From: Bacillota bacterium
GTDB lineage: Bacteria; Bacillota; Clostridia; Acetivibrionales; JAMNXU01
Reading direction: 5' to 3'
DNA length: 64,000 nucleotides
Assembly (NCBI GenBank): GCA_023623175.1
Contig: JAMNXU010000010.1
Span: 84,967-148,966, forward strand
The notes beneath the pieces are model-generated. The model ran no database searches and had not been told where the DNA came from. It worked only from the letters and a program-made list of their open reading frames with translations. The position numbers and the translations under genes are program-made. Below are positions 24,336 to 32,528 of this stretch, piece after piece (the stretch's first letter is position 1; each line of letters begins with the position of its first letter).

Positions 24336-25496
24336 TTAGTCTTTTTTCGCGGAAAGCTCCTTTATCAGTTCCAGCGCAATGATGTTTCTCTGTATCTGGT
24401 TGGTGCCTTCATATATTTGAGTTATCTTTGCATCGCGCATCATTTTTTCAACGGGATATTCCTTCATGTAGCCATAACCTCCAAGGATTTGTACTGCGTC
24501 AGTTGTGACTTTCATGGCAGTGTCGGAAGCCATTACCTTTGCCATTGCGCTTTCCTTGGAGAAATTTTTGGCGCCGCTGTCTATGTACCTGCAAGTCTGG
24601 TAGACAAGCGCCCTTGCCGCTTCTATCTGGATGGCCATGTCGGCAAGCATGTGCTGTATTGCCTGGAATGATGATATGGGCTGGCCAAACTGGACCCTTT
24701 CCCTCGAGTATTTCAGGGCAGCGTCAAAGGCGCCCTGGGCAATGCCCAAAGCCTGGGCTGCGACACCGGGTCGGGTTCTGTCAAGGGTTTTCATTGCAAC
24801 TATAAAGCCCATTCCTTCGCGCGCCAGCAGATTTTCCTTCGGTATCCTGCAGTTTTCGAAAATCAGTTCCCTCGTGCTTGATGCACGAATGCCCATCTTG
24901 TTTTCCTTTTTTCCGAAAGAAAATCCCGGAGTGCCCTTTTCGACTATAAAGGCGGAAAAACCCCTCGCTCCCCTGGACCTGTCAGTGCAGGCTATTATTG
25001 TATATATGTCGGCTTCTCCTCCGTTGGTTATCCATTGCTTGGTTCCGTTCAGGACATATTCATCGCCGTCACGGACCGCCGTTGTCTGTATTCCCGCGGC
25101 GTCGCTGCCCGCATTGGCTTCCGTCAGGCCGAAGGCGGCAAGCTTTTTGCCTGCGGCAATATCAGGCAGGTATTTTCTTTTTTGTTCCTCGTTTCCGAAG
25201 AGTATTATGGGAAACGCGCCGAGACCGGTTCCTGCAAAGGCGAGAGCTATTCCTCCGCAGGCGCGGCTAAGTTCCTCTACCACGAGAGCCATTTCAAAGA
25301 CGCCTCCGCCGAGGCCGCCGTATTCTTCCGGGATATATACCCCGCAAAGATCGGAGTCGGCGAGCACCTTGACAATGTCATGGGGAAAAATGCCTTCCTC
25401 GTCATATTTAAGAGCAACGGGCGCTATTTTTTCATCCGCGATTCTTGCCGCAAGCTCTTTAATCATTTTCTGTTCTTCGGTTAAAAAGTAATCCAT
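24336..25496 (-). CDS. acyl-CoA dehydrogenase
   Basis: FGLTEANAGSDA, QWITNGG, ERVQFGQPISSFQAIQHMLADM, QILGGYGYMKEYPVEKMMRDAKITQIYEGTNQIQR. Confidence 0.95.
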   Translation of the reverse strand: MDYFLTEEQKMIKELAARIADEKIAPVALKYDEEGIFPHDIVKVLADSDLCGVYIPEEYGGLGGGVFEMALVVEELSRACGGIALAFAGTGLGAFPIILFGNEEQKRKYLPDIAAGKKLAAFGLTEANAGSDAAGIQTTAVRDGDEYVLNGTKQWITNGGEADIYTIIACTDRSRGARGFSAFIVEKGTPGFSFGKKENKMGIRASSTRELIFENCRIPKENLLAREGMGFIVAMKTLDRTRPGVAAQALGIAQGAFDAALKYSRERVQFGQPISSFQAIQHMLADMAIQIEAARALVYQTCRYIDSGAKNFSKESAMAKVMASDTAMKVTTDAVQILGGYGYMKEYPVEKMMRDAKITQIYEGTNQIQRNIIALELIKELSAKKD

Positions 25497-25535
25497 CCCG
25501 ACACACTCCTTTGTACGGTGAATTATTAATAACTA

Positions 25536-25552
25536 TTATTATCTGGTAATAA
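25536..25552 (-). promoter_or_regulatory. putative FapR operator upstream of acyl-CoA dehydrogenase
   Basis: TTATTATCTGGTAATAA; same TTATTA-N5-TAATAA layout as the site upstream of fapR. Confidence 0.6.
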
Positions 25553-25565
25553 ATACTATGGAAAT

Positions 25566-25594
25566 AGTATAATACATATTAACCACGCATGCAA
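25566..25594 (-). promoter_or_regulatory. putative promoter of acyl-CoA dehydrogenase
   Basis: - strand TTGCAT-17 nt-TATACT, 13 nt upstream of the operator-like palindrome. Confidence 0.55.
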
Positions 25595-27789: not shown

Positions 27790-28024
27790 GCTGCATGGAA
27801 CCACCTGGCTTGATATTGGAATATCTTGTTTTGAATATACTTTTTAAATATAATTTATTTTTAACGGATTTGTGTTTGACATACATATTTCAGTATTTTT
27901 ATTGTGAAATATATTCAATTTGAATACATTTTTATTGAAACAAATCATTTCTGAAACATTTGAAATACATTTTAAAGGAAAAGGTTGCATATCGAAAAAA
28001 TATATAATATACTTTTATCATCAG

Positions 28025-28047
28025 AATTTATTACTTGGTAATAAATT
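28025..28047 (+). promoter_or_regulatory. putative FapR operator upstream of fapR
   Basis: AATTTATTAC-TTG-GTAATAAATT, perfect 10-bp palindrome; core TTATTACTTGGTAATAA resembles FapR consensus TTAGTACCTGGTACTAA. Confidence 0.8.
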
Positions 28048-28086
28048 TGCCCGTTTAAATATATGTATTTAATCAGAGGTGTATCT

Positions 28087-28650
28087 ATGAGCAGATCGTT
28101 GTCCAAGAGGGAGAGGCACAAACTCCTGTTGGAAAAAATTGAAGAAGATCCCTTTTTAACTGACGAAGAGCTGGCGGAACAACTCTCCGTGAGCATTCCG
28201 ACCATTCGGCTGGACCGGCTTGAACTGGGCATTCCCGAGCTTCGGGGAAGAATAAAAAATGTAGCCGAGGAAAATTATAGAAAAGTAAGGTCGATGCACG
28301 GAAGGGAAATAATCGGAGAGCTTGTAGATCTAAACCTCGGCCAGAGTGGCATTTCCATTCTTGAGACAAACATGGACATGGCTTTTGAAAAGACGAGAAT
28401 AGTAAGGGGTCATTTCATATATTCCCTGGCTGAATCCCTTGCGATAGCGGTTATTGACGCCCAGGTCGCACTGGTGGGCGTGGCGAACATTAAATACAAG
28501 ACCCCGGTTTACGCGGGGAGCAAACTTGTGGCAAAAGCCGAAGTAAAAAGAAAAAGGGACAACAAGTACATTGTCTGGGTGAAAATATACGTAAAGCAGG
28601 AGGAAACCTTCAGGGGAAAGTTCATACTTGTATCCCTTGAAAAGGTTTAA
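28087..28650 (+). CDS. fapR: fatty acid and phospholipid biosynthesis transcription factor FapR
   Basis: [42 protein letters not shown]; hot-dog C-terminal domain; directly before plsX. Confidence 0.93.
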
Positions 28651-28733: not shown

Positions 28734-29762
28734 GTGACAGTTTTGGTTATAATAGTCGATGCCATGGGCGGGGACAATGCCCCGGAAGCGATTGTAAACG
28801 GATGCATAGACGCATTGCTTGAAAGAAACGGATTCGAGATACTGCTTGTCGGTGATGCCGGAAAAATTGAAAAGATAATAAAGGAAAGGAAATACAGCGG
28901 AAAAGGGCTGAGAATTCACAATGCGACCGAGGTTATTGAAAACAATGACGTGCCCGTGAAGGCTATAAAATCAAAAAAGGATTCCTCGATGGTCGTGGGT
29001 CTTAACCTGTTAAAGGAGAAAAAGGGCGAAGTTTTCCTTTCCGCGGGTAACACCGGGGCCCTTACCGTAGGATCAATGCTGACCCTCGGAAGAATCAGGG
29101 GAGTGGTAAGGCCAGCCCTCGCGCCGATACTGCCTGCAAAAAAAAGCGGTGTAATGCTCGTGGACGCGGGAATAAACACCGTGTGCAAGCCTGTGAATTA
29201 CCTGCAATTCGGAATACTGGGCTCGTTGTACATGAGGAATGTCATGGGCATAGAAAATCCCAGGGTAGGTCTCGTCAATGTAGGTTCCGAGGACCAGAAG
29301 GGCAATGAAACAATTAAACAGGCATACAAGCTTCTCTCGGAATCCGGAATCAATTTTATAGGCAATATCGAAGGCAGGGACATTCCTGAAAGCGTTGTCG
29401 ACGTAGCCGTGACCGACGGATTCACGGGCAATGTGGCTCTGAAGCTGATGGAGGGCGTAGGGTCCCTGTTTATAACGGAACTGAAAAATATATATACTTC
29501 GAACCTTTTGTCAAAAATCTCGGCACTGGCTGTCTCCGGCAGTCTCAAGAAGTTCAGGAGGAAGTTTGATTACGCGGAATATGGCGGAACGCTGATTCTC
29601 GGTGTTGACGGCAAGGTTATGAAAACCCACGGAAGTTCCAATGCCAAGGCCGTGAAAAAATCGGTATTCAATGCAGTAAATCTTGCACAAAGCAATATAA
29701 TCGAGATTATCCGCGAGCAATTCAAGGACATGGAGGTCGGCGATATTGAAAACGAGATTTAA
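28734..29762 (+). CDS. plsX: phosphate acyltransferase PlsX
   Basis: IIVDAMGGDNAPEAIV; SAGNTGAL; start GTG 28734 or TTG 28743. Confidence 0.95.
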   Translation: MTVLVIIVDAMGGDNAPEAIVNGCIDALLERNGFEILLVGDAGKIEKIIKERKYSGKGLRIHNATEVIENNDVPVKAIKSKKDSSMVVGLNLLKEKKGEVFLSAGNTGALTVGSMLTLGRIRGVVRPALAPILPAKKSGVMLVDAGINTVCKPVNYLQFGILGSLYMRNVMGIENPRVGLVNVGSEDQKGNETIKQAYKLLSESGINFIGNIEGRDIPESVVDVAVTDGFTGNVALKLMEGVGSLFITELKNIYTSNLLSKISALAVSGSLKKFRRKFDYAEYGGTLILGVDGKVMKTHGSSNAKAVKKSVFNAVNLAQSNIIEIIREQFKDMEVGDIENEI

Positions 29763-30771
29763 ACCGGCAGGAATAATTGGTATCGGAAGCTGTTTGCCCG
29801 AAAATGTCCTCACGAACAGTGACCTGGAAAAAATGGTTGACACCAGCGATGAATGGATAATAAAGCGCACGGGCATCCGCGAGCGCAGGATCCTGGATAA
29901 AGGTCAGCCTGCCTATTCCATAGGATATGAAGCAGCGCTGAGGGCCATTGAAGATGCAGGAATAAGCGCAGAAGACATTGACCTTATAATCGTAGCCACG
30001 GAAACTCCCGATTACCTGACGCCTTCAACGGCTTGCATCCTCCAGGGAAAACTCGGCGCCAGGAATGCAGCGGCATTTGACCTTAACGCTGCCTGCACGG
30101 GAATGATTTACGCGTTGTCCGTTGCAAGGCAGTATGTCAGCAGCGGCACGTACAGGTATGTCCTGGTGGTGTGCTGCGAAGGTCTTTCCAAGGTGACGGA
30201 CTGGCAGGACAGGAAGACATGCGTGCTTTTCGGCGATGCCGCGGGAGCCGTCGTCATAGGAGAAGTGGAAGAAGGCTATGGAATAATAGATACATACCTG
30301 GGTTCCGACGGGGAGGCGGGTCGCTGCCTTACCATACCGTGCTGCCATATGGATGAATCGGATATTGAAAAAAGGACTCATGAAAACAAGCGCGTGCTGT
30401 GGATGGACGGCAGCGAAGTGTTCAAATTCGCCGTCAGAATAATGGAACATGCGACGGAAAAAATTCTAGACTTAACAGGCACTCTTCCCGGGGATCTTAA
30501 GATGATATTTCCACACCAGGCGAATGTTCGCATAATTGAAGGCGCACTTAAGAGGCTCGGGATATCCGACGAAAACATGATGCCCGTAATTCATAAATAC
30601 GGCAATATTTCTTCAGCTTCCATACCCGTGTCCATTGACGAGGCATACAGGGCTGGAAGGCTGTTGAAGGGAGACAAAATACTTCTGGTCGGATTCGGAG
30701 GCGGTCTGACCTGGGGTTCGGCAATAATCCGATGGAATAAGAATCAGCCCGGGGATACGGGCGTTAATTAA
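29746..30771 (+). CDS. fabH: 3-oxoacyl-ACP synthase III
   Basis: GIGSCLPENVLTNSDLE, DTSDEWIIKRTGIRERR, DLNAACTGMIYAL, FPHQANVRIIE. Confidence 0.95.
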   Translation: MKTRFKPAGIIGIGSCLPENVLTNSDLEKMVDTSDEWIIKRTGIRERRILDKGQPAYSIGYEAALRAIEDAGISAEDIDLIIVATETPDYLTPSTACILQGKLGARNAAAFDLNAACTGMIYALSVARQYVSSGTYRYVLVVCCEGLSKVTDWQDRKTCVLFGDAAGAVVIGEVEEGYGIIDTYLGSDGEAGRCLTIPCCHMDESDIEKRTHENKRVLWMDGSEVFKFAVRIMEHATEKILDLTGTLPGDLKMIFPHQANVRIIEGALKRLGISDENMMPVIHKYGNISSASIPVSIDEAYRAGRLLKGDKILLVGFGGGLTWGSAIIRWNKNQPGDTGVN

Positions 30772-30797
30772 GCGGAATTTAGCAAAGGAGGGGCTTT

Positions 30798-31733
30798 ATG
30801 GGAAAGCTTGCATTTATATTCCCCGGTCAGGGTGCGCAATATCCAGGAATGGGAAAATTAATAGCCGAAAACCATATCGGCGCTGATCGCGTATTTGATG
30901 AGGCTTCCGAAGCCTTGGGGCTCGATGTAAAAAAAATGATTTTTGAAGGCGATGAAGAAGTATTGAAAATTACCGAGAATACGCAGCCTGCCATTGTAAC
31001 GACCAGCATTGCCTGCCTTCAGCCCCTGCTCGAAAACGGCATCAGGCCCGATGCAGTAGCCGGCCTGAGCCTTGGCGAATATTGCGCCCACGTGGTGTCC
31101 GGCACAATGTCTTTTGCCGATGCGGTCACAATCGTCAGAAAAAGGGGAAAATTCATGCAGGAGGCCGTGCCCGTAGGCGTTGGAACAATGGCGGCAATAA
31201 TCGGTCTGGACAACGACAACGTCATTGAAGCATGCAGCGAGGCTTCATCGGAAGGAACAGTGGAACCTGCCAATTTCAACTGCCCCGGCCAGGTAGTGAT
31301 TGCAGGCGAAGTGAAAGCGGTTGAGAAAGCGTCCGAAATATGCAGGCAAAAGGGAGCCAAAAGGGCTGTGATTCTTCCGGTAAGCGCTCCTTTCCACTGC
31401 AGCATGCTCAAACCCGCGGGCGAAAAACTGGCGCAGGAACTGGCCGGTGTGGAGCTTAAAGAAATGAAAGTTCCGGTGGTAACCAATGTAACCGGCAATT
31501 TCGTAGAATCAGTCGAATGTGTGAAAGATCTGCTGGTACGTCAGGTGAGCACGGCAGTGCTGTGGGAACAGTGCGTAAACACTATGCTGGCCCATGGCGT
31601 CGACACTTTCGTCGAAATAGGACCGGGCAAGGTTTTAAGCGGGTTTGTTAAAAGAATCGATAAGAATGCCAGGACTCTCAACGTGGAAGACATGGAGTCA
31701 TTAAATGCAACGCTTAAGGAACTTGCGGGCTAA
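30798..31733 (+). CDS. fabD: malonyl CoA-ACP transacylase
   Basis: FIFPGQGAQYPGMGK, AGLSLGEYCAHVVSG, SAPFHCSMLKPA. Confidence 0.95.
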   Translation: MGKLAFIFPGQGAQYPGMGKLIAENHIGADRVFDEASEALGLDVKKMIFEGDEEVLKITENTQPAIVTTSIACLQPLLENGIRPDAVAGLSLGEYCAHVVSGTMSFADAVTIVRKRGKFMQEAVPVGVGTMAAIIGLDNDNVIEACSEASSEGTVEPANFNCPGQVVIAGEVKAVEKASEICRQKGAKRAVILPVSAPFHCSMLKPAGEKLAQELAGVELKEMKVPVVTNVTGNFVESVECVKDLLVRQVSTAVLWEQCVNTMLAHGVDTFVEIGPGKVLSGFVKRIDKNARTLNVEDMESLNATLKELAG

Positions 31734-31784
31734 GCCTGCAGTTTATCCTGAATTTGCAATTACATATGAAAGGGGTGCATAGCA

Positions 31785-32528
31785 TTGTCGCTGAAAGGAA
31801 AAACTGCCCTTATAACCGGTTCAGCCAGGGGACTCGGCAGGGCAATTGCTCTGAAACTTGCAAAAATGGGCGCTAACATCGTTCTTAATGATATCGAGGG
31901 ATCTGACAGCATTGACGCGACCTATGAAGAATTCAAGGCGCTGGGCTTCCCCGTGGCCGTTGCCAAGGGAGACGTCAGGAATCCTGAAGATGTCAGGGCC
32001 ATGGTCAAAACGGCCGTTGACACTTTCGGAAGCCTGGATATACTGGTAAACAACGCAGGCATTACACGCGACAAGCCCATGGCCATGATGTCCGAGGAGG
32101 ACTGGGACGCCGTTCTGGACATCAACCTGAAGGGCGCGTTCAATTGCACTAAGGCTGCCGCGAAAATAATGATCCGGCAAAGATCTGGAAAAATTATTAA
32201 TATCGCCTCCGTCGCCGGAGTCATAGGCAATGCAGGACAGGCGAACTACTCCGCATCAAAGGCTGGCTTAATCGGCCTTACAAAGACCACAGCGAGGGAG
32301 TTTGCCTCGAGGGGAATCACATGCAACGCAGTGGCTCCGGGATTTATAACAAGCAAAATGACAGAAGTGCTGCCTGACAAGGTCAAGGAAGCCTACCTCA
32401 ACAGCATTCCGCTCGGCAGGTTTGGGACGCCTGAGGATGTGGCCAATGTTGTAGGGTTTTTGGCATCTCCCGAATCGGATTATATAACCGGTCAGGTTAT
32501 TAATATTGACGGAGGACTGGTAATGTAA
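31785..32528 (+). CDS. fabG: 3-oxoacyl-ACP reductase
   Basis: SDR: ALITGSARGLGRAIA, NNAGITRD, YSASKAGLIGLTKTTARE, IDGGLVM. Confidence 0.95.
   Translation: MSLKGKTALITGSARGLGRAIALKLAKMGANIVLNDIEGSDSIDATYEEFKALGFPVAVAKGDVRNPEDVRAMVKTAVDTFGSLDILVNNAGITRDKPMAMMSEEDWDAVLDINLKGAFNCTKAAAKIMIRQRSGKIINIASVAGVIGNAGQANYSASKAGLIGLTKTTAREFASRGITCNAVAPGFITSKMTEVLPDKVKEAYLNSIPLGRFGTPEDVANVVGFLASPESDYITGQVINIDGGLVM

Follow-up and report, generated by a model that had tools for sequence, protein, structure and literature searches.

The 64,000-nt stretch of DNA analysed here, referred to as the window, carries a gene for an acyl-CoA dehydrogenase (ACAD; 24336..25496, minus strand; 386 aa, assigned by its Pfam ACAD domains) preceded by what looks like an operator of FapR, the malonyl-CoA-responsive repressor. 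The question raised by this locus is whether the enzyme, routinely annotated as degradative, may be an overlooked enzyme of fatty acid synthesis; FapR control here, together with a FASII context elsewhere, would reverse that annotation.

Architecture of the operator

The ACAD promoter consists of a −35 element TTGCAT (25589..25594, minus strand) and a −10 element TATACT (25566..25571, minus strand) separated by a 17-nt spacer. Starting 13 nt after the −10 element, a 17-bp inverted repeat occupies 25536..25552 and reads TTATTACCAGATAATAA on the minus strand, corresponding to TTATTATCTGGTAATAA on the plus strand. A sequence-only reading of this DNA had described a palindrome just downstream of a TTGCAT-N17-TATACT promoter reading into the ACAD gene, with the same layout as a palindrome at fapR about 2.5 kb away; letters and coordinates were exact, and the two sites are 2476 bp apart. 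What that reading overlooked is a third half-site, TAATAA at 25523-25528, 13 bp past the second half-site, which emerged from the alignment of upstream regions. Inverted repeat and third half-site form a composite (double) operator (25523..25552, minus strand) with no mismatches to the pattern TTAKTAYYNRRTAMTAA-N7-TRMTAA. The 17-mer alone has no mismatches to TTAKTAYYNRRTAMTAA and, as expected of a FapR operator, is an inverted repeat close to TTAGTACC-N-GGTACTAA. We regard it as almost certain that the ACAD gene is served by a functional FapR operator at 25523-25552, FapR binding itself being inferred.

Known operators provide a close parallel. The FapR 17-bp palindrome has been given as TTAGTACCAGATACTAA (PMC5028935), from which the ACAD site differs solely at the symmetric pair 4/14, where T/A stands in place of G/C. 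The operators of Bacillus, Staphylococcus and Exiguobacterium are likewise 17-bp inverted repeats that overlap the promoter or directly follow it, and they leave room for two dimers, as does the double operator of ACAD. In S. aureus, two SaFapR dimers occupy one operator with Kd values of 0.5 and 51 nM (PMC3536700), and in Exiguobacterium binding was seen with the full promoter but not with a promoter fragment that stops at the palindrome TTAGTACCAGATACTAA (PMC5028935). The ACAD operator differs from these in having a conserved third half-site at a distance of 13 bp, which we infer to be the binding place of the second FapR dimer, and in its target, an ACAD gene. A search of open papers turned up no report of a link between FapR and an ACAD; subscription journals were outside the scope.

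The fapR gene has a TTGCAT-N17-TATACT promoter of its own (27985..28013, plus strand), behind which lies the 17-mer TTATTACTTGGTAATAA (28028..28044). The composite operator of the fapR operon (28015..28044, minus strand) matches the composite pattern without mismatch and shares the architecture of the ACAD operator, but its orientation is opposite to that of its own promoter. The genome thus has a FapR gene that is itself preceded by a FapR-type site. The fapR reading frame (28087..28650, plus strand) opens at 28063 with a likely start at 28087, and the protein scores 263 bits against NF003359 (cut-off 183), which places it clearly in the FapR family. Downstream follow the fatty acid and phospholipid synthesis genes plsX-fabH-fabD-fabG (28734..32528, plus strand), of which plsX and fabH were named by NCBIfam and fabD and fabG by reading the open reading frames, consistent with the operon order of relatives.

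Operator sites in the genome

The 2.85 Mb genome was examined through pattern searches and selected stretches. Exact TTATTA-N5-TAATAA occurs only twice, at ACAD and at fapR. With one mismatch allowed, the bare layout is not enriched genome-wide (35 matches versus 49 for the reversed control); the layout alone therefore proves little, and we rejected it as evidence. The composite pattern was found without mismatch at the promoters of ACAD, fapR and mmdA/BCCP/oadA, and with two mismatches upstream of FabI and of an acyl-CoA ligase; another two-mismatch match, the sixth, lies at C35 and is doubtful. At three mismatches the pattern is hardly above the control (6 and 8 matches versus 5 and 3).

The perfect composite operator at G000:C22:71344-71373 (L199:5345-5374), 13.6 kb before the window, heads an operon for an mmdA-like carboxyltransferase, a biotin carrier and an oxaloacetate-decarboxylase-like protein, and is conserved in most relatives. 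This suggests that malonyl-CoA is made via carboxyl transfer from oxaloacetate. In Caldicellulosiruptor bescii, deletion of fapR raises a malonyl-CoA transcription unit whose genes include those for a biotin carrier protein and an oxaloacetate decarboxylase (PMC7071700), which provides a positive control for the carboxyltransferase operon as a FapR target. The C. bescii regulon resembles the present one in comprising a fatty acid synthesis unit and such a malonyl-CoA unit; the paper describing it names no ACAD, unlike the regulon found here. Two further sites lie upstream of a long-chain acyl-CoA ligase (G000:C19:63369-63398, L200) and, as a double site, upstream of fabI (G000:C20:99329-99358, L201).

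Conservation of the operator in relatives

Sixty genomes of the order yielded 17 other full-length ACAD orthologues, 84-94% identical to the ACAD of the window, and additional fragments, distributed across many families. The sequence-only reading would have failed had the palindrome been missing upstream of orthologous dehydrogenases, which is not the case. The composite pattern with at most two mismatches is present upstream of ACAD in 21 of 24 distinct regions of the order, in most family-level lineages that carry an orthologue; the operator is absent in three lineages (L039, L040/L062 and L046), which have lost the site. Corresponding values are 28 of 29 distinct regions for fapR and 20 of 28 regions for the carboxyltransferase, and in all three cases the mean of shuffled controls, which kept dinucleotides, was 0.0. 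The TTGCA-N-TATA-T promoter is kept in 18 of the 24 ACAD regions, the distance from promoter to operator is mostly 12-16 nt, and the 13 ± 1 nt spacing is mostly retained.

These results bear on the simplest alternative, that the palindrome is a chance match in AT-rich DNA or the site of another repressor. The lack of enrichment of the bare layout at one mismatch would be expected on this alternative, but it leaves unexplained that composite, spacing and promoter are conserved together in most orthologues and that the identical motif stands upstream of almost every fapR. Because of the extended operator and its conservation the site exceeds chance, and we consider the alternative hardly tenable. 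FapR very probably controls the ACAD gene here and in relatives, with binding again inferred; the earlier proposal that ACAD belongs to the FapR regulon is thus supported by the conserved operator and a clear FapR.

Not every site behaves in this way. The site upstream of fabI was found in one of 11 regions, that of this genome, and in none of the ten relatives; FabI was therefore rejected as a conserved FapR target.

The ACAD and its putative electron-transfer partners

The ACAD is complete, with N-terminal, middle and C-terminal domains and a predicted catalytic Glu363 in the motif IYEGT; the catalytic Glu is invariant in 95 relatives. Its best NCBIfam match is AcrC, with 492.9 bits, below the cut-off of 640. 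The previous description of the ACAD gene as "lone" holds for this genome, where a single match makes it the only one, and fails as a description of the original state, as most relatives have ACAD-etfB-etfA. In these relatives recA-recX is followed by ACAD-etfB-etfA, divergent from rimO-pgsA-fapR-plsX-fabH-fabD-fabG, an order that looks ancestral. In this genome and in relative G008, etfBA is gone from the ACAD locus, with ACAD and operator retained. The linked EtfA of relatives carries an N-terminal two-cluster ferredoxin domain.

An adjacent EtfAB, as expected of a bifurcating Bcd/EtfAB complex, is present in most relatives and absent at this locus. The only ETF of the genome is encoded on another contig (G000:C15:86k, L276); it is short, lacks the ferredoxin domain and is of a different type. 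Its gene is flanked by an MTHFR-like gene on one side and by those of a formate/nitrite transporter and formate-THF ligase on the other, and it is 78-82% identical to copies in G008 and G002. Bcd/EtfAB, acryloyl-CoA reductase and the caffeyl-CoA reductase CarCDE likewise combine an ACAD with EtfAB, and the ferredoxin domain on the EtfA of relatives is a further point of resemblance. The present ACAD differs from these systems in its FASII context, its control by FapR and the loss of EtfAB from this locus.

FASII-linked relatives in other phyla

The best non-clostridial relatives of the ACAD, 70-76% identical, come from Omnitrophota, Nitrospirota, Eisenbacteria, Elusimicrobia, Spirochaetales and others. 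In many of these distant relatives the ACAD gene, usually with etfB-etfA, sits among FASII genes, and at 24 distant loci it stands beside at least two of them. In this genome, ACAD is co-regulated and lies 2.5 kb from the fapR operon without being co-operonic with FASII genes. One locus, from a Thermodesulfovibrionia bacterium (L118:3873-12545), presents the FASII operon plsX-fabH-ACAD-etfB-etfA-fabD-fabG-acpP-fabF with overlapping genes, the names of which were confirmed by NCBIfam.

We scored 39 distant genomes for other enoyl reductases, applying our own thresholds (at least 100 bits against the FabI of this genome for FabI, at least 180 bits against TIGR03151 for FabK, and a PF12241 match for FabV) and tallying by hand from the tables. 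The FASII-linked set comprised 27 genomes, 24 with at least two FASII genes beside the ACAD and three with one. An enoyl reductase candidate was found in six of these and only a weak nitronate-monooxygenase-like match in five, whereas in the remaining 16 of 27, including the single-contig chromosomes CP070655.1 and CP070632.1, FabI, FabK and FabV were not recognised. FabV appeared only in two Spirochaetales, both with an ACAD that is not FASII-linked. The count of 16 carries the caveat that FabL-like or other SDR reductases are indistinguishable from FabG in this analysis and that most of the genomes are draft MAGs.

The same relationships help to assess whether the ACAD is of the butyryl-CoA-dehydrogenase type, converting crotonyl-CoA into butyryl-CoA as a primer for FabH or for energy conservation. 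Its 58% identity to C. difficile Bcd is in keeping with this assignment, and the ferredoxin-fused EtfA of relatives recalls bifurcating reductases; however, the ACAD family is nearer to the FASII-linked proteins of other phyla than to Bcd, and a 3HCDH-family 3-hydroxybutyryl-CoA dehydrogenase is absent from this genome. We consider this assignment improbable.

Direction of the reaction and role of the ACAD

The sequence-only reading left open whether the enzyme oxidises or reduces; the present evidence favours a role in synthesis. Because malonyl-CoA releases FapR, production of a FapR target is expected to coincide with demand for fatty acid synthesis. At low malonyl-CoA, FapR would bind as two dimers, one on the 17-bp inverted repeat and one on an overlapping site offset by 13 bp, and would thereby prevent transcription of ACAD; malonyl-CoA would release it, so that ACAD would be made alongside the fatty-acid-synthesis genes. 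An enzyme produced together with these genes most likely works in synthesis, and we regard it as likely that the ACAD does so. As a flavin enoyl-thioester reductase it would receive electrons from an electron-transferring flavoprotein, the ancestral donor presumably being the adjacent EtfAB with the ferredoxin domain on EtfA. That it is an enoyl-thioester reductase is only marginally favoured, with catalysis inferred from the context and from the missing FabI, FabK and FabV. The explanation as a whole, a FapR-controlled ACAD acting as an ETF-fed flavin enoyl-thioester reductase in fatty acid synthesis, has in our judgement a modest balance in its favour; binding, reaction direction, substrate (ACP or CoA thioester) and the electron partner in this genome are inferred.

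Several observations speak against this explanation. Close relatives of known function, such as Bcd, act on CoA thioesters, the ferredoxin-fused EtfAB is missing here, and three orthologues lack the operator. Moreover, the genome has FabI, itself preceded by a FapR-type double site, and hence no need of the ACAD as sole enoyl reductase; this weakens the enoyl-reductase reading here and leaves room for a role in unsaturated fatty acid formation. In that case the ACAD would belong to an anaerobic route to unsaturated fatty acids and act as a dehydrogenase on acyl-CoA or acyl-ACP, oxidising a medium-chain acyl thioester to the 2-enoyl form, which would then undergo isomerisation and elongation, much as with FabX except that an ETF would be the acceptor. 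Such a route would account for the presence of both FabI and ACAD in this genome and most relatives and for FapR control of the ACAD gene; dehydrogenation as a step within FASII is already known from FabX (PMC8626469), and ACADs on carrier-protein substrates exist in profile libraries (RedW, MbtN). It gives no account of why the FASII operons bearing the module are so often without a recognised enoyl reductase, and we think it unlikely, while not dismissing it. On this reading the ACAD would resemble FabX of Helicobacter pylori, a flavin/iron-sulphur redox enzyme inside FASII; unlike the ACAD, FabX belongs to the nitronate monooxygenase family and uses oxygen.

The family name of the ACAD points to the first step of beta-oxidation or lipid turnover, which would recycle membrane fatty acids together with the FapR-controlled acyl-CoA ligase. 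The FapR-type site of the ligase is conserved in most relatives, its 17-mer core being found with at most one mismatch in 19 of 30, including lineages without ACAD. Yet derepression by malonyl-CoA would then run synthesis and breakdown together, and the FASII operon context elsewhere does not fit. Searching this genome for 3-hydroxyacyl-CoA dehydrogenase (PF02737) returned fragments only, the best scoring about 23 bits and covering 48 of 180 positions, which makes ordinary beta-oxidation unlikely. We give a degradative role little credence.

Compared with FabI, FabK, FabL and FabV, an enoyl-reducing ACAD would share the predicted reaction and the operon company; it differs in belonging to an unrelated fold family and in drawing electrons from ETF, not directly from NAD(P)H. 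ACAD with ferredoxin-fused EtfAB may constitute another class of enoyl-ACP reductase, serving as the principal enzyme in many lineages of anaerobes (Omnitrophota, Nitrospirota, Eisenbacteria and others) and, under FapR control, as a supplementary one in this clostridial order; this is a tentative proposal that we hold somewhat short of probable. The open papers searched contained no report of an ACAD-type enoyl-ACP reductase, subscription journals again excluded. If true, the proposal would fill the missing enoyl reduction step in several phyla, and an ETF-linked reductase would give anaerobes a connection between ferredoxin and lipid synthesis.

In distant Bacillota, a variant motif, TTAGGACCTG-N-TCATA with TACTAA at an equal 13-bp spacing, lies upstream of ACAD-etfB-etfA (L071:5919, L072:5958 and L081:5894) and is possibly a diverged FapR operator.
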